This document shows positions 4,262-28,652 of a stretch of DNA of 32,351 nt, in pieces. A program made the position numbers and the translations under genes. The notes under the pieces were generated by a model that was not told the DNA's origin, searched no databases, and saw nothing but the letters and a program-made list of their open reading frames with translations. Positions within the stretch are counted from its first letter, which is position 1. Every line of letters starts with the position of its first letter. This stretch comes from Tychonema litorale BBK16 (lineage in GTDB: Bacteria; Cyanobacteriota; Cyanobacteriia; Cyanobacteriales; Microcoleaceae): positions 1-32,351 of the forward strand of contig NZ_JAKJHX010000056.1 in the NCBI RefSeq assembly GCF_021648855.1, given 5' to 3'.

Positions 4262-4780
4262 TTACTTTTCCTCAGCCCCCTGTTCCGGCCACAGATAAAT
4301 CAGTCCAGAAATCAAGGTTAAAGCGACTGATACCCAAAAAGCAATTAATGCCGGAAGATTCCAGGCTTCAGAGAGGGGAGCAATTAAAAGTGCGATCGCG
4401 ACAATCTGACTTACGGTTTTCAACTTACCCCAAATATTAGCACCAGAAATCGTAGTTTTGTTAACACGCCATCCTGCAATTGTCAACTCTCTGCCCAAAA
4501 TCAGAAATACCGCCCAAGCTGGAACTTTTCCCAATTCAATCAATACTAAAAGCGGGGCTAACACTAACAATTTATCTACCAAAGGATCGAGAAATTTTCC
4601 CAGATCTGTAATTTGATTGAGCTTTCTAGCCAAATAGCCGTCTAGCCAATCTGTAGCCGCAGCTACGACGAAAATAGCTACACAAATCCAGCGACTTTGT
4701 ACGCTTGGATCGTACAAGCCGTAGAGTAGAAAAGGTACTCCTAGTAAGCGAGAAAAAGTAATCAGATTAGGTAAGTTCAT
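4262..4780 (-). CDS. pgsA: CDP-diacylglycerol-glycerol-3-phosphate 3-phosphatidyltransferase
   Basis: This 172-aa integral membrane protein carries the full CDP-alcohol phosphotransferase signature: D44-x2-D47-G48-x2-A51-R52-x8-G61-x3-D65-x3-D69. The enzyme transfers a phosphatidyl group from CDP-diacylglycerol to glycerol-3-phosphate. This is the committed step to phosphatidylglycerol, an essential thylakoid and photosystem lipid in cyanobacteria. Hydrophobic segments occur on both sides of the motif, and the length is close to bacterial PgsA proteins. PgsA is preferred over other family members because of the short length and the MNLPNLITFSRLL start. Upstream lie two heptamer tandem repeats and then the stop of the actin-like gene, so it may be the last gene of a minus-strand unit. 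Confidence 0.9.
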   Translation of the reverse strand: MNLPNLITFSRLLGVPFLLYGLYDPSVQSRWICVAIFVVAAATDWLDGYLARKLNQITDLGKFLDPLVDKLLVLAPLLVLIELGKVPAWAVFLILGRELTIAGWRVNKTTISGANIWGKLKTVSQIVAIALLIAPLSEAWNLPALIAFWVSVALTLISGLIYLWPEQGAEEK

Positions 4781-4853: not shown

Positions 4854-4884
4854 TTCTTCCTTCTTCCTTCTTCCTTCTTCCTTC
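4854..4884. repeat. Heptamer tandem repeat (ttcttcc)n
   Basis: This 31-nt tract is the exact reverse complement of the repeat at 2160-2190. Its last two bases overlap the stop codon of the actin-like ATPase gene, so the tract starts at the very 3' end of that gene. Confidence 0.9.
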
Positions 4885-6823
4885 AAATATCGCTATGAAC
4901 ACCCCAAGAAATTGTGAGGGGTTCTAGAATTTTTTGCTGAGTGCTAGAGGCGAGTTTGGTCAAATATTCGCGGACAATAGCAGCCTGTTGGATATTCAAA
5001 CTATAAGTCCGTGAAGCGCAGCTATCCCGTAGAGAATCGCCATTTTGGATAAACAACACCGCCGCTGAAATAGCCTCCCAATCAGGATTTTGGCGTGAAT
5101 CCGGGGCTAATAACATTAAATCTGTGCGATCGGGCAAAAGTCCAGCGACCCAATTTCCCGATAAAATCTCCAAAATCCGTGACTCACAGGTGCGAGTATT
5201 CACACCGCGACGTTCCAATAACTGCACAATTTGCTCAAAACTCAAAGCTGCTTCCCCCAATACTTGCATCAATTCCCACAGCAAACAAAAGTTGCCATAC
5301 TGGTGTCTGGAAACATCTAAAATGCGAGGATAAAGAGCTAAATTTGCTAGTCCACAAGCAACTCGACTGATTTTCATATCCTGAAATTCTGGGTATTGAA
5401 CCACGATCGCATTTGGGAGTTTTTGGCGCAACCAACGCGCGATCGCAGACCAACCACCCATTCCCCCAGCACAAATAGCCTGATTAATCCCCGCAGGCGA
5501 CATTCCCACACGACTCAATAAAGCATTTAATTCACGGTTCAACTGCTGGACAAAAGGCACTAAAACTTGAGTTTCTAAATCTCTTCGCCGTACATTCCAG
5601 CGTTTTTCACCAATATCCAAAACAAAGCTTTCTTGATGTTGCAAAATTACTTTCAAATGTCTCGCAGCATCCAACAATTGCAGACCAAAATCTGAACTTT
5701 GCAATCGCTGTTGCAATTCATAGCGATTGGGCAAATCGGGATGTCCGGGACGTGGCAAATTCATCGACATTCCAAAGGTTTCGTTTTTTGCTAATAGTTG
5801 ACAGATAATATCTTGGTCGAAAGCATCGCCAGCAAAAGCAAAACTTTGGCAACTAAAATCAGCATAAGTTAAATGCGTGCCCTGAGCGAAGTCGAAGGGT
5901 TGAGTATTTTCTGGCAAGTCAACTAAACCCAATTCTACTGTCGTCGCACCAGCATTCAAAATCAAAGTTCCACCACTAAAAGAAGAAGCTTGAACAGCCA
6001 ATTTTCTGTTGGATATATCGCGATCATCGATCGCTTCAGTAGCTTCCGAATACCCAGGATTAGCATTTTGCATCGGAGTGATGGCCGAAAGCAAAGTGGC
6101 GATCGCATCTTCCACCACAAAAATCTGCTCACATTCCCCCACCAATCCCGCACCCAAGACTGCTTCTCGCAGGTTAAACCGATAAGCATTACTCCAACCA
6201 GCCGGAGTCCCCAAAATTACGCCCTGTAAGCCTTCGAGCGCTTTATCGAAAGCTTCCGTCTCTAGTCCCGAAGCTCGACAGATTAAATTAGGAATTGATA
6301 AACCCTCAAAATTCGCCGACAAACGGGGATTTAATGTCGTCAACAGCGCCCGTAAACAGTTTAGCGGCAAGGCGATGGAAATAGCCCGATCGCCCGAAAA
6401 CTCCAACAGAGGCTCATAAACCACTCCCGTTCCCCGCAAATAGGGAATTGCCACCTTCAAAGGGAGTTTAAAATTTCGTAGCAAAAATTCCCCAACGGCC
6501 AAGGTCTGTGGTTGACAACCCACAGAATTGACTGTTATTTGCTGTCCTAAGCTCCCATTGGCTGTTTCCTTCAAAATTGCAACGGAGGGGATTCGATAAG
6601 TGCTAACAGACTCGAAAACGTCCTTATTTGGTGTTTCTGAGTCCTGTCTGGTCTCCCAATGAATCGGGTATAATTGGCCACTTTGGCGATCGACCAAAGC
6701 TGCCGAAAGCCCGCTGGTGCCGAAGTCGATACCTAAATACCAGTGAGAATTTGGGCGATTGGGAGATCCGATTGAAGTTTCTGGGAATGAAGGCGCGATC
6801 GATCCTGTGGTAGGATTTGTCAC
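4883..6823 (-). CDS. Actin/Hsp70-fold ATPase-like protein
   Basis: This 646-aa protein has the ATPase motifs of the actin/Hsp70/MreB superfamily: phosphate-1 loop GIDFGTSG (31-38), a second Gly-rich phosphate strand ([13 protein letters not shown], about 286-298) and a later adenosine-type motif ([11 protein letters not shown], about 449-459). It lacks a recognisable Hsp70 substrate-binding domain, so it is Hsp70-like only in the nucleotide-binding fold. The only start available is a GTG at 6821-6823 with no Shine-Dalgarno. The frame is open upstream to 6907 and runs back into the last codons of the preceding gene in the -1 frame (see findings). The sequence PFDFAQG at about 308-314 is encoded by a dispersed DNA repeat. 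Function is unknown; cytoskeletal or scaffold-coupled ATPase is an inference. Confidence 0.75.
5880..5899. repeat. Dispersed repeat inside a coding region (ccctgagcgaagtcgaaggg)
   Basis: This 20-mer occurs identically at 15664-15683 and with two changes at 15725-15744. Here it lies within the actin-like gene and on the coding strand encodes PFDFAQG in frame. Confidence 0.85.
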
Positions 6824-6864
6824 CGATTTGTCTGTAACTGATTCTGCTTTAGTTGCGATCGCGA

Positions 6865-9204
6865 TTAGTTTTTTTTTTGACTTTCTGGAGAATTTGACCG
6901 CAGTTTGTTAGTTTGCTGGCTAATTTGGGCCGAGGCTTGATCTGCTTCGATCAAACTAGCCAAAATATCATCTAGGCTGACATTCTCGTCTTCCTCTTGG
7001 GCCAACAACTCAACATCCAGCTTCTCTTCCAAAGTAAAAATTTCAGCCATTTCATCCTCAGATGACAGTTCCAACATATCTGGGAACAAATCTTCTAGGG
7101 TGCCAAGTTCTTCCTCAGCCAGTTCCGCAAAGGGGTTCTTTGCATCACCATCTGAGGTACTTATCAAGAAACCTGAGTTGAGTGTTGCTGATGGTTGCGA
7201 TCGCCTAGGGCTAATGTTTGGCAATCCTTCCAGACTATAAAGGTCTGACTCTAATTGTTCCAGAATATCGTTGTCTAAGTTTAAAGAGCGATCGACATCT
7301 TCCTCATTCTCCTGTTCTACCGGCAGCAAATTTTCGTCCGGCGAAGCTTGGATGTAGACATCGCCCGGCGCGACATGGCTGCGATCTAAATTAGTTTGGG
7401 CGATCGTTCTTGAGACGGTTGTTTCAGGAAACAGGCGTACTGTGACCACTTCTTCCTCTCTCAAGGGATTTGGAGTATCTAATGTGAGATTTTCTACAGA
7501 ATTTGAATTTACGAAATCTGAGTTTTCATCGACCAGAAAATCTGCCACTGAGTCATCTTCATCCAATGTATTTGGGGACAACTCAAACCCAGCATTCAGG
7601 GGTGCATCAGTTTCTGAAATTGCTGGTTCTTCTGGAAATTGTGATTCATCATCTACTAGATTAGAGAACAAATCTTCAGTATCTATTGATGATTCATCCC
7701 TGTCACTGATTGTCAGTTCTTCTGGAAATAAATCGTCGTCATCTACTAGATTAGAGAACAGATCTTCAGTATCTGCTGATGATTGAGCGTTGGCATTACC
7801 TGCTGGTTCTTGAGGTGGTAAATCTTCTTCGCCTAGTAGACTCGCGAATAAATCTTGAGTATTTATTGATGGTCTACTCCTGCTACTAACTGGCTGTGTT
7901 TCAGATTGTACTAATTCAATTTCAGTAGCAGTATTTTCTATAACGAAGTCTTCGAGGTCAAGTTCTGCGACTTCTTCTTCCAGGAACAAATTCGCATACA
8001 CATCCTCAACATCTTCATCACTTTCAGCCGACTCTGGTTCGGATTGGGCACCTGGGAATGCAGTTGTCGGTCGATCGCTTTGGGGTACAGCATTGAACAA
8101 GTTTTCTGCCAAATCCGGGAGTGAGATGGCTGTGGAAGTGCGATCGCGCTTCAATTGTCCAAATTGCGGAGAAAGTTCTGTTCCGGCGTAGGGAAATCTT
8201 TCTTGTTCCCGGAGTCCTTCGTTGCTCCTATCTGCGATCGCCCCTTCTGCCATTAGAGTCTCTCCAGTTAACTGGATTTGAGCCGTGTTTGGCAGCATCT
8301 GGCTGGTTGATGTTGCATTTTGGTTTGATAAGTCGATCGTCGGCTGCTGCACGTAGGATGACGCTTCTCGACCCAATTCCTCCGCCAAGTGGTTGACCAA
8401 AGCTGTGAACATCATCTCGCTCTGTTGGCCCAGGCCGTGCATTCTTTCGAGTCCTTGGGACAAAGATCCTTGATAGGTTTCCAGATTTCCTTGCAAAGCC
8501 TCAAATACAATATTCATGGTAGAGTCGAGTCTCATCAGCAGGCGATCGGCCCCAGTCTCGAACTGTTGCATCTGTTCCAATCTTTCTGCGGGTGTCAGCA
8601 GTCTTTGTTCGATGGGAATTTGTTGGTTCAAATCCAAAGAATTAGATGCACTTCCTAAAGACTGATTTTGCAGATTGCGTGGACTTAGGGAGAAATCTGC
8701 AACCAAAGTTTCTGACAAACGGCTAGTCATAGCCTGCAAAAAATCGGAAATGATTTGCTGTTGGTTAGCTTGTTGTTGGGCCAAGGATTGTTGCTGCTGA
8801 CGTCTTACTTCCAGCAGCTTAATTTCTTGAACTAGAGCTTGTTGCTCTTCGCGCAGAGCTTGTATATCTGCTTCCAGTGGGCCTGTCAGGCTTTCTCGCA
8901 GGTAACTGATTTCTCCGGTGACAGCTTGCAAAATTTGCTGTGTCGCTGATTGTTGATTAGTGGTACCCACTGGTACTTTTGGTACTGGAACGGGTGGTGG
9001 CGGAATCTTGGGGCTGTTTGCCTGTTTGTGCCCCGCCATTAGCTTTGAGTCTGGGGAAACCAGATAGGTGCGAACTCGCTCTAAAATTTGACGTTGGTGC
9101 ACAAGATCGATCGAACCCGTCCAAGGCAATCGGGGTACGGGTTTGCTGAGTACCTCATCAATCTCAGCAATTAGTGCTTGAATTTTGTACTTCTGAGAAT
9201 TCAA
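6865..9204 (-). CDS. Coiled-coil and acidic disordered scaffold-like protein with 30-residue repeats
   Basis: I do not recognise this 779-aa family by function. Visible parts: a small N-terminal helical region (1-55); a Pro-rich linker with PPPPVPVPKVPV (about 68-79); a Gln/Glu-rich coiled coil (about 85-165); a second helical stretch (about 200-285); then a long acidic, probably disordered tail. The tail holds three 30-residue repeats starting at 451, 481 and 511, each beginning DLF-x-x-L and followed by Asp/Glu. Looser relatives (ENLF, YANLF, EDLFPDML, DDILASL) occur elsewhere in the tail. There is no signal peptide or membrane segment. The start is TTG at 9204 with gagg eight bases upstream. 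The gene ends in a run of ten A's. The layout suggests a scaffold that displays repeated short binding motifs, perhaps for the ATPase encoded 41 bp downstream. Confidence 0.75.
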   Translation of the reverse strand: MNSQKYKIQALIAEIDEVLSKPVPRLPWTGSIDLVHQRQILERVRTYLVSPDSKLMAGHKQANSPKIPPPPVPVPKVPVGTTNQQSATQQILQAVTGEISYLRESLTGPLEADIQALREEQQALVQEIKLLEVRRQQQQSLAQQQANQQQIISDFLQAMTSRLSETLVADFSLSPRNLQNQSLGSASNSLDLNQQIPIEQRLLTPAERLEQMQQFETGADRLLMRLDSTMNIVFEALQGNLETYQGSLSQGLERMHGLGQQSEMMFTALVNHLAEELGREASSYVQQPTIDLSNQNATSTSQMLPNTAQIQLTGETLMAEGAIADRSNEGLREQERFPYAGTELSPQFGQLKRDRTSTAISLPDLAENLFNAVPQSDRPTTAFPGAQSEPESAESDEDVEDVYANLFLEEEVAELDLEDFVIENTATEIELVQSETQPVSSRSRPSINTQDLFASLLGEEDLPPQEPAGNANAQSSADTEDLFSNLVDDDDLFPEELTISDRDESSIDTEDLFSNLVDDESQFPEEPAISETDAPLNAGFELSPNTLDEDDSVADFLVDENSDFVNSNSVENLTLDTPNPLREEEVVTVRLFPETTVSRTIAQTNLDRSHVAPGDVYIQASPDENLLPVEQENEEDVDRSLNLDNDILEQLESDLYSLEGLPNISPRRSQPSATLNSGFLISTSDGDAKNPFAELAEEELGTLEDLFPDMLELSSEDEMAEIFTLEEKLDVELLAQEEDENVSLDDILASLIEADQASAQISQQTNKLRSNSPESQKKN
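6869..6878 (-). promoter_or_regulatory. A10 slippery run (A AAA AAC) at the scaffold/ATPase junction
   Basis: Ten consecutive A's on the coding strand give the zero-frame codons CAA AAA AAA AAC followed by TAA. This contains the -1 frameshift heptamer A AAA AAC. It is also long enough for RNA-polymerase slippage. The -1 frame has no stop before the downstream ATPase frame. Confidence 0.5.
7585..7854 (-). repeat. Three 90-bp in-frame tandem repeats
   Basis: Residues 451-540 of the scaffold-like protein are three consecutive 30-residue units. Units two and three share DLFSNLVDD and FPEE and are close at the DNA level (tctactagattagagaacaa or -aga in both). The pattern indicates recent tandem duplication. 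Confidence 0.8.
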
Positions 9205-18885: not shown

Positions 18886-20097
18886 TTAACCCGGTAAATC
18901 CAGGACTAAGCCTGAAGCTACCGTGTATGGCAAGACAGAAAAAGCTGCAAGCTCTCCTGTCAAGGAGGTATCTCTCAAAGCTTTCAATAAAATATTGAAA
19001 GCGCCATTTAATTCTCTGTCCAGAGTGTGCCCGCATTCTGGACATTTAAACTTTTTAGACCCGCCTAATTTAGGATGAATTAGTCCACATTTTGAGCAGG
19101 TTTTGGATGTGTATTCTTGGGTTACGTCTACTACAGTGCTGCCATATTTAACAGCCTGATGCTTCAACATTTGTTTAAAACGATAATGGCTTAAAGTAAC
19201 CATCGCCCTAGCTGTTTTAGTCGCTAATTTTCGTTTACCTTTTTTTACCATTTGTTGTGTTTCAAAGGTCGGTAGGAAAATTAGTTGATACTTTGTTACC
19301 AAGTATTTAGCAGCCTTCTTGTGCAACTCATTGACTAAGTTTTTAATCTTAATCCGAATCTTTGCCGCTGACTTTCTCAAACAATATCTTAATCTCTTGA
19401 ATCGCCCTCCTTTATTTACCCCTATTCTCGACATCAACTTATCTAAATGTCTTGCCAGTCGGTAGATACGACCAATATCACCCTTACCTAGTTCGACAAT
19501 ATCACTACCATCGAATCCAGTCAAAAATGTTCTAATACCAGGGTCTAAAGCAATAGCTAAATCGCTTTGGAGTTGCTCTGGCTTTGTGATGTCAACTGCA
19601 TAGCAAATAAACCATTGCCCATTGATTAGTGATAGTGTTGGCTCGTGTTCCATCACTTCTATAATTGGTTCAGACGCTTTAAATGATAGTCCTTTGGTTG
19701 CTTGTGGATAAAAAGTTCTAGACTTCCAATTACCAACTTGAAATCTGATGGTCTGAGATACATCAAAGCGACTTCTAAATTTGGCAGTTCCTTTTAACTT
19801 TTGGGCGGCTTTGTGTGCTTCAAAAGCTTGGAACACTGCCATTTGTCGTGGGTTATAAGGTTGTTCGGAAACCCAGATTGGCGCTGAGTCCATAATCTTT
19901 TTTCTGAGGTCATACTTACCAATCCTTTCGGTTTTAAGGATAGCAATTGCTTGGTTATAGCACCATCTGCTTGCTGCAATCCAAGTCCTCCACTTGTCTG
20001 CTAGCTTGGTTTCCGGGTAAACTCGAATCTTCTTTGATAGCAGATTTGTACTTTCGCAGACCGTAGAGTCGGCAACTAAAGACGTGGATGATGGCAA
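18886..20097 (-). CDS. tnpB: TnpB, RuvC-type RNA-guided nuclease family
   Basis: The TnpB sequence proper begins near KKIRVYPETKLADKWRTWIA and gives about 400 aa, the normal family length. The RuvC residues are all visible: Asp in ALDPGIRTF, Glu in FLPTFETQQ and Asp in LDRELNGAFN. The zinc ribbon CSKCG...CPECG lies between the last two. So the nuclease may be active. TnpB proteins cut DNA guided by an omega RNA from the 3' end of their own element. I suggest the TTG at 20097 as start; the frame is open up to 20337, but those extra residues overlap the resolvase gene out of frame and look non-coding. No good ribosome-binding site decides the start. Confidence 0.85.
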   Translation of the reverse strand: MPSSTSLVADSTVCESTNLLSKKIRVYPETKLADKWRTWIAASRWCYNQAIAILKTERIGKYDLRKKIMDSAPIWVSEQPYNPRQMAVFQAFEAHKAAQKLKGTAKFRSRFDVSQTIRFQVGNWKSRTFYPQATKGLSFKASEPIIEVMEHEPTLSLINGQWFICYAVDITKPEQLQSDLAIALDPGIRTFLTGFDGSDIVELGKGDIGRIYRLARHLDKLMSRIGVNKGGRFKRLRYCLRKSAAKIRIKIKNLVNELHKKAAKYLVTKYQLIFLPTFETQQMVKKGKRKLATKTARAMVTLSHYRFKQMLKHQAVKYGSTVVDVTQEYTSKTCSKCGLIHPKLGGSKKFKCPECGHTLDRELNGAFNILLKALRDTSLTGELAAFSVLPYTVASGLVLDLPG

Positions 20098-20345
20098 GGA
20101 TATCTTCAACCATCTCTCGTTCTGGAGACAACTCGTTTCTACTGAGAACCATGAGTTGGCAATTGTTTTGCTCATCAAACCATTTGATGAGGTCGCCACT
20201 AAACCTGGCGAGTCTGTCTTGGTGTCTGACCACAATTGTTGAGATATTTCCTGACATGACTTGTCCCAAAAGGGCAAGCAGCGCTTTTCTTTTGAAATTG
20301 AATCCGCCTCCAATGTCTTTAAAGATTTTTTTTTCATCTATAGTA
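19955..20345 (-). pseudogene. tnpA remnant, C-terminal part of IS607-type serine resolvase
   Basis: In this frame the strand reads DIGGGFNFKRKALLALLGQ, then VRHQDRLARFS and DILAIIHVFSCRLYGLRKYK. These are hallmark C-terminal blocks of IS607 TnpA. The N-terminal MerR-type HTH and the catalytic-Ser segment (usually CRVS near residue 65) are missing. Upstream the frame soon hits a TAA near 20380. The product cannot be a working recombinase. It overlaps the tnpB frame, as in intact IS607 elements. Confidence 0.8.
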
Positions 20346-28100: not shown

Positions 28101-28556
28101 CTATCTTCGCCGCGTGCGTCGCCAGTCAACACCTAAGCGATTTAGGTAATCCCAGCCACGTTGAGGCCAGACATGAGCTTTACCAGTCTTTTCAGCAATC
28201 CAGCGAGCTACTTTAGGACCAGTCCAAATTCCCCCGTCGGGGGCCAAGCCTTGCAGCGCTTGTCGCAGTTCTTCTTGCTGTTCTGGATTCAGTAAAGATT
28301 TAGCAGGAGGTGGCTGGCGGTCTCTACTGCGGTTTTTAACAGAGTTAGGCCCTTCTCGGTTATAGCGCTGGACAATTTCTTTGGCGTAATCATAATTGAT
28401 CCCTATAACTTGAGCTGCTTGCTTGATAGTCCAATTTCTGGAAACCAACAGCAGCAAGTGCCAGCGGCGAGATTCTGTAGTGTTTTCGGCCTGCCGGTAG
28501 CGAATTTTGAGTTCCTCTGCCGTCAGGTGAGATTCTAGGTGGGCTTTAGGTGGCAT
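28101..28556 (-). CDS. IS630-type helix-turn-helix protein, catalytic domain absent
   Basis: The protein is 151 aa from the ATG at 28556; in-frame starts at 28589 (with ggaag upstream) or 28622 are possible. It matches the N-terminal, DNA-binding half of cyanobacterial IS630-family transposases: MPPKAHLESHLTAEELKIRY, an HTH around WTIKQAAQVIGINYDYAKEI, then GGIWTGPKVARWIAEKTGK and WDYLNRLG, a second winged helix. It stops at WRRTRRR where the DDE catalytic half would begin, and no DDE remnant follows. The frame is undamaged and has its own terminator, so it may be a domesticated DNA-binding protein. The simpler reading is a first ORF of a broken IS. Confidence 0.7.
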   Translation of the reverse strand: MPPKAHLESHLTAEELKIRYRQAENTTESRRWHLLLLVSRNWTIKQAAQVIGINYDYAKEIVQRYNREGPNSVKNRSRDRQPPPAKSLLNPEQQEELRQALQGLAPDGGIWTGPKVARWIAEKTGKAHVWPQRGWDYLNRLGVDWRRTRRR

Positions 28557-28652
28557 TCCTGCATTGGGGCATCGGGAACTTCTCTCCATATATCTTCCGG
28601 TTGGGGTCTTATTCCGGATCAAACTGTGATTCGGGAGATAGTTCGATAAGTA

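Follow-up and report, generated by a model that had tools for sequence, protein, structure and literature searches.

The junction between the scaffold gene and the ATPase frame

We analysed a 32,351-nucleotide stretch of DNA, referred to here as the window, from the cyanobacterium Tychonema litorale BBK16 (NCBI RefSeq assembly GCF_021648855.1, contig NZ_JAKJHX010000056.1, positions 1 to 32,351), on whose minus strand a gene for a predicted coiled-coil scaffold protein overlaps the frame of an ATPase with a predicted Hsp70/MreB fold. A preliminary description, made from the sequence and its open reading frames (ORFs), had placed a run of ten adenines (A10) at the end of the scaffold gene of 779 amino acids (aa), which closes with CAA AAA AAA AAC TAA, and re-reading of the 6865-6879 region confirmed this ending. 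The junction is made up of the following features.

6869..6878, minus strand: A10 slippery run, read directly from the sequence.
6865..6867, minus strand: TAA stop of the short product, immediately 3' of AAC, read directly from the sequence.
6865..9204, minus strand: scaffold gene, 779 aa, TTG start, taken from the ORF list; orthologues with the same neighbours occur in many relatives.
4883..6907, minus strand: ATPase frame between two in-frame stops, comprising 674 codons and the closing stop; it overlaps the 3' end of the scaffold gene.
4883..6823, minus strand: expected annotation of the ATPase ORF, with a GTG start at 6823 (no Shine-Dalgarno core) and a length of 646 aa.
6743..6868, minus strand: 42-codon linker read in the ATPase frame, beginning LIAIATKAESVTDKS.
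6704..6742, minus strand: start of the ATPase domain, with what we take to be the phosphate-binding motif of the actin/Hsp70 fold; the predicted model matches Hsp70 and MreB folds.

The minus strand at the junction reads AGT CAA AAA AAA AAC TAA, and the short product, with A10 read as such, has the C-terminus ...SPESQKKN. The ATPase frame is open from within the scaffold gene, across the run and into the ATPase; the preliminary description had found the -1 frame free of stops from the run to the GTG of the ATPase, and it is indeed open for 674 codons. Reading of the run as A11 would yield a fusion of 770 + 670 = 1,440 aa (the 670 counted from scaffold residue 771), in agreement with the approximately 1,440 aa estimated previously, and reading as A9 would give a product that terminates a few residues further on. 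At 110 Da per residue the calculated masses are near 86 kDa for the short form and near 158 kDa for the fusion. Two other details of that description also hold: the GTG at 6823 lacks a preceding Shine-Dalgarno core, and A AAA AAC is a canonical X_XXY_YYZ heptamer in the correct phase for a -1 shift.

Such runs are scarce in this genome. Its 5.27 Mb contain just eight distinct runs of at least ten A's with both strands counted, and no further run of at least nine A's or T's occurs in the 125.6 kb made up by the scaffold and ATPase ORFs of the 30 genus loci, with none of at least ten in 280 kb of flanking sequence. The A10 at the junction is therefore not a product of chance.

Run, frame and linker among related loci

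A search for the ATPase gave a match in 46 of 59 relatives and, across the order, in 254 of 388 genomes; both counts include the genome of the window. From these genomes 110 matching stretches were fetched, best or family-spread first; together with the window and 80 loci kept of 349 in a named collection, and after removal of 48 duplicates and of L113, which had no N-terminal match, this gave 142 loci. Thirty of them, comprising the window, loci from 28 same-genus genomes and L172 (from the named collection, and standing beside L154 on the tree), are called the genus below. Starts were counted as ATG, GTG and TTG only, and all P values treat related loci as independent and serve only as a guide.

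Across the genus, 27 loci have a run of A10, two of A9 and one of A11. The ORF layout around the run varies: 12 loci carry one fused ORF, 17 (L153 included) need a -1 shift to enter the ATPase frame, and the A11 locus needs the other shift. The preliminary description had looked to homologues for a lost run or a closed -1 frame as signs against its reading, and the genus presents the opposite picture: the run is kept, and 29 of the 30 loci have an ATPase frame that is open from the run onwards. It had also raised the possibility of species with a single fused ORF; these exist, and they are fused through the same run. A stop in the frame of the short product lies no more than 4-5 codons from the start of the run in 29 of the 30 loci, L153 being the exception. 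This locus (G006:C250) has kept its A10, the ATPase frame is closed and the ATPase is mostly lost, so that it appears to be a pseudogene.

On the DNA tree of the genus ATPase the frame state changes at least ten times, and on a tree of 136 rows, from which the short or doubtful loci L077, L153, L154, L061, L129 and L118 were left out, at least 18 changes between fused and split were counted among loci with A9 or longer. Most of the contexts differ either in the C, CC or CCC that follows the run or in whether T or C precedes it, and the run itself stays at ten. Fused loci read GTC-A10-CCTAAT (eight genus loci) or AGC-A10-CCCTAA (one), and split loci read AGT-A10-CCTAAT (five), AGC-A10-CCTAAT (two) or GTC-A10-CTAATC (two, the window included). 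The exceptions, in which run length differs, are L032 and L033 (A9) and L044 (A11). Frame changes beside a constant A10 are what would be expected if the length of the run were under selection and the frame were not. The sister loci L032 and L033 additionally have a second frame change upstream in the scaffold, where one of them contains a run of N, so this change may be an assembly fault.

Sorting of the 142 loci by layout only, blind to the run, gave 68 fused loci, 45 overlapping pairs (the scaffold stop inside an open ATPase frame), 27 separate pairs and two loci without a scaffold. The definition of a run depended on the test: at least A8 in the 420 bases preceding the ATPase motif, a run that touches the overlap, or one rule applied to both layouts. 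Of the 45 overlapping pairs, 39 have a run of A9-A11 touching the overlap. Five of the remaining six have an ATG, and the sixth (L126) is irregular, with a further frame change upstream. The comparison of 39/45 with 2/27 separate pairs gave P = 1.3e-11 for these related loci. Under the single rule, A9 or longer occurs in 40 of 45 overlapping vs 1 of 27 separate pairs, and the single separate pair is the decayed L153. In L092, a sister locus in the Okeania/Trichodesmium group, the run has shrunk to A7, the ATPase frame is closed and an ATG is present. Split loci with A10 also occur in Stenomitos and in two Leptolyngbyaceae (L199, L201, L202), and judged by these sequences the putative device is spread through the order. 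In L085 (Okeania sp. SIO3I5) the scaffold gene is itself split into two overlapping ORFs, and at that point, some 986 bases ahead of the ATPase motif, there is a second run (A11); expression of this locus may need slippage twice.

The linker between the run and the ATPase domain behaves as coding sequence in the ATPase frame. Across its 806 codons in 17 split genus loci (16 that need -1 and one that needs the other shift; L153 left out), the ATPase frame contains no stops, compared with 31 in one of the other frames (17 of these being the short product's own, leaving 14) and 45 in the other. The linker starts with LI or LT in all 29 intact genus loci and measures 36 to 61 codons yet ends in the same frame, and therefore its insertions and deletions keep frame. 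An excess of third-position substitutions had been tried as a coding test and was too weak, so it was replaced by the stop counts per frame. These counts suggest that the frame after the run is used as coding in split species, although it is out of frame in the DNA.

Starts for a free ATPase are few in split loci of the genus (n = 17): eight have no ATG, GTG or TTG, and one has an ATG. Among all split loci with a run (n = 39; L077, with A8 and no long ORF entering the run, and the decayed L153 left out), 14 have none of these codons between the run and the ATPase and 11 have an ATG, vs an ATG in 29 of the 30 split loci without a run (Fisher's exact test, 2.7e-9, related loci).

In fused loci, the loss of one A from the run brings the frame to a stop one residue after it in all 12 genus loci, and within two residues of it in 29 of the 44 fused loci with a run overall. 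This total includes L093 (A8, no long ORF entering the run), which is not really fused. In two more loci (L060 and L094) the near stop results from the gain of one A. Within the genus the near stop depends on a CTA in the fused reading frame; CTA accounts for 20% of the CTN codons there.

Probable polymerase slippage and competing explanations

From the conservation of the run, the open frame, the linker and the stop in the genus, together with the frame flips, we infer that the A10 run is probably a programmed transcriptional slippage site that yields both a free scaffold and a scaffold-ATPase fusion. RNA polymerase would produce mRNAs with 9, 10, 11 or more A's, and ordinary translation of this mixture would give two proteins with a common N-terminus: the bare coiled-coil scaffold, which ends just after the run, and the scaffold joined through the linker to the Hsp70/MreB-fold ATPase. 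In the genome studied here A10 would template the short form and A11 (or A8) the 1,440-aa fusion, and in sister species with fused DNA the short form would come from A9 or A11. Because either DNA frame would yield both products, the frame at the junction would be nearly free to drift as long as the run is kept. The likely use of such an arrangement would be to set the proportion of subunits with and without the ATPase within one assembly. The data thus lend support to the free scaffold and scaffold-ATPase of the preliminary description, which would presumably both be made.

A broader version of this proposal we hold with only a little more confidence than doubt. It describes a frame-blind gene in which polymerase slippage supplies both products from either frame, selection acts on the length of the run rather than on the frame, and fused and split states drift between sisters. 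The ratio of scaffold to ATPase-scaffold would be fixed, the ATPase of split species would exist only in tethered form, and the system would be an old, order-wide one residing in a chromosomal, non-mobile gene.

The preliminary description had offered the -1 heptamer and slippage by the polymerase side by side, and of the two the polymerase fits better. Programmed -1 ribosomal frameshifting at A AAA AAC or A AAA AAG could make the fusion, or the short form in fused species, from unedited mRNA; the heptamer is in phase in the window, 35 of the 39 split loci need a -1 shift, and A-rich heptamers do shift in bacteria according to the excerpted text of one study (PMC5009743). A heptamer needs only seven bases, however, and the overlapping pairs hold the run at 9-11. 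Fused species keep the run as well. Moreover, four of the 39 split loci need the other direction (L044 with A11, L069 and L111 with A10, L114 with A9), so that both directions of shift are represented. In 43 loci the 60 and 90 bases that follow the run gave no sign of a stimulatory RNA structure (mean z of -0.3 and -0.2, with values below -2 in two and three of the 43; pseudoknots are outside the model), and a Shine-Dalgarno-like 4-mer 4-16 bases before the run is absent from 76 of 78 loci and present in just two. For these reasons we regard ribosomal shifting as unlikely to be the main mechanism.

A different possibility is that there is no recoding, the run being a DNA hotspot at which replication slippage fuses and splits the genes by phase variation, and that split species either make no ATPase or make it separately, whether by translational coupling or from GTG, TTG or other starts. 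It gains from the decay of L153, from the presence of some ATG, GTG or TTG in 25 of 39 split loci, and from close relatives that differ in frame (L154/L172, L045/L047 and, by run length, L037/L044). Phase variation would be expected to show as run lengths that differ between ON and OFF genomes, but fused and split loci share A10 and mostly differ by insertions and deletions beside it. In addition, 14 of the 39 split loci have no such start, the linker is free of stops in the ATPase frame, and it is the split loci without a run that have an ATG (29 of 30), with separate pairs being runless in 26 of 27 cases. We consider this explanation somewhat less likely even than ribosomal frameshifting. 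Least probable by far is an error in homopolymer length, which the preliminary description had named as its alternative and under which the locus would be one fused gene. In its favour, homopolymers are prone to sequencing errors, and drafts or metagenome-assembled genomes make up many of the assemblies; nevertheless, the same A10-C-TAA recurs in the separately assembled genome of the nearest relative (L040 = L155), the single-contig genomes G019 and G021 are split, and a split A10 is found in the complete genome of Microcoleus vaginatus HSN003 (L164 = L054). Fused A10 loci occur as well, for example in the isolate Microcoleus sp. FACHB-61 (L162 = L043). Since A10 is shared by fused and split species that differ beside the run, we rejected this explanation. 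More generally, flanks that change around a constant A10 do not appear to be what either sequencing error or simple phase variation predicts.

Several observations weigh against slippage at the junction, the case for which is drawn from sequence. The nearness of the stop is weak evidence for any single locus, as about 0.1 of control codons do as well, and linker substitutions show only a slight third-position excess (16/22/29 in split-split pairs). Some ATG, GTG or TTG is available in the 25 run-bearing split loci mentioned above, four Okeania/Trichodesmium-like loci carry an ATG at -13, and the ATPase has decayed in L153. Runs of at least eight A's are absent from 27 fused and 30 split loci, and the device is therefore not essential to the family. 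Finally, 13 of the 44 fused loci with a run acquire longer tails after slippage by one A. Twelve of these belong to a Nostoc-like clade (L132-L136, L138, L200, L216-L218, L222 and L232), whose tails would be 3-33 residues after a loss and 15-36 after a gain; the other two of its 14 loci, L208 and L229, have a near stop. A near stop after slippage, tried as a test for all fused loci, thus fails in most of this clade. The fused ORFs of the 12 loci keep A8-A10 near the same place, perhaps as no more than a lysine tract; no clearly defined short form is apparent in these loci, and we do not extend the proposal of two products to them.

The proteins, their neighbourhood and comparable genes

The sequence data and models point to an uncharacterised cyanobacterial gene pair that encodes a coiled-coil scaffold and an Hsp70/MreB-fold ATPase. 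Searches of Pfam and NCBIfam with both window proteins gave no usable match and only weak matches in relatives. The window ATPase matched no family of either database (HSP70 included) at E up to 1, and of 24 ATPase relatives five matched HSP70 and 16 matched PilM_2 at this threshold, the best at about 2e-5. The predicted model of the ATPase, in contrast, matches the folds of Hsp70 and MreB, including the Hsp70 nucleotide-binding fold, so its likeness to the actin-fold ATPases Hsp70/DnaK and MreB is one of predicted fold and not of a sequence match to the HSP70 family. For the N-terminal 300 residues of the scaffold, AlphaFold2 run on alignment A2 gave a predicted local distance difference test score (pLDDT) of 70.8 and a predicted template modelling score (pTM) of 0.27; helices are predicted, and their packing is unreliable. 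As the model of these residues shows long helices only and the pTM is 0.27, no fold search was made with them. The start codon of the scaffold (9202-9204 in the window) was TTG or GTG in 18 of 22 loci compared, the window and 21 relatives, with ATG in one and no start at the aligned codon in three others, and appears to be a conserved weak start. Two further features lie beside or within the pair.

8350..8946, minus strand: two long helices (residues 87-182 and 205-285) in the conserved N-terminal part of the scaffold, coiled-coil-like, predicted by AlphaFold2.
4262..4780, minus strand: downstream gene, presumably pgsA-like from its sequence; a neighbour of the pair in many relatives.

Many of the 142 loci share the same neighbours, and those loci are therefore orthologues. 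After the pair comes the presumed pgsA-like gene; before it, in many loci, stand genes pointing away from it that we take to be CRP-like, DUF2232-like and CobT-like, their positions being observed and their names assumed. Elsewhere in the window (18886-20337 and 28101-28622) there are two transposase-like ORFs, named by eye from the ORF list: one is presumably TnpB-like with a zinc ribbon, the other presumably a helix-turn-helix ORF as in IS630 elements. Another A10 of the same genome (L144, G000:C15:19000-21000) starts at codon 6 of a frame that stays open for 327 more codons (ATG TCA GAA GCT AGT AAA AAA AAA A..), where slippage would truncate the protein early.

Among the matches listed in the open-licence literature, none reported slippage in the scaffold/ATPase pair described here. 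Outside insertion sequences (IS), the excerpted literature names few bacterial slippage genes: dnaX, type III and type VI secretion genes, and mapW. The closest likeness is to dnaX of Thermus thermophilus and the Chlorobi, in which transcriptional slippage yields tau and gamma and 9-10 A's likewise lie between a shared N-terminal and an extra C-terminal part. As excerpted, the sources describe Thermus dnaX as a single ORF with stops close by in the other frames (PMC5009743), and count 17 two-ORF dnaX genes, 12 with poly-A and nine of these with 10 A's, for which slippage is a prediction (PMC3711429). The proteins are unrelated to those described here, and the dnaX forms are given, in the text available, for different genera, whereas the forms of the present locus interchange at least ten times within one genus; in addition, slippage has been demonstrated for Thermus dnaX, and here it is a reading of sequence. 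The type VI gene tssM of Citrobacter rodentium and Yersinia pseudotuberculosis also has a stop beside its A run and a longer frame restored beyond it. In the excerpted account of Citrobacter rodentium (PMC4256274), slippage at an A11 before the stop restores this frame, no stimulator was found and there are two length variants; the RNA carries 10-15 A's, as seen by mass spectrometry of cDNA, and both forms and their ratio are needed. TssM is a secretion protein whose long form restores a family domain, whereas the long form here would add a whole ATPase to a scaffold. A cyanobacterial precedent is given by IS elements of Nostoc PCC 7120, in which, according to the excerpt, 8-10 A's are interpreted as sites of slippage (PMC1088944). 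Bacterial IS elements that slip at A8-A10 are mobile; the pair described here is chromosomal with conserved neighbours.

On the evidence of its sequence, the locus would thus join the known class of programmed slippage genes, and would be unusual within it for the frequency with which the templated frame flips. One would expect split loci to be annotated as two genes or as a frameshifted gene, and fused loci as a single gene. Sister species with opposite DNA frames around the same A10 constitute a natural experiment on the neutrality of the frame under slippage and on the product ratio given by each configuration, in a system where the stoichiometry of scaffold and ATPase may be set by the polymerase.

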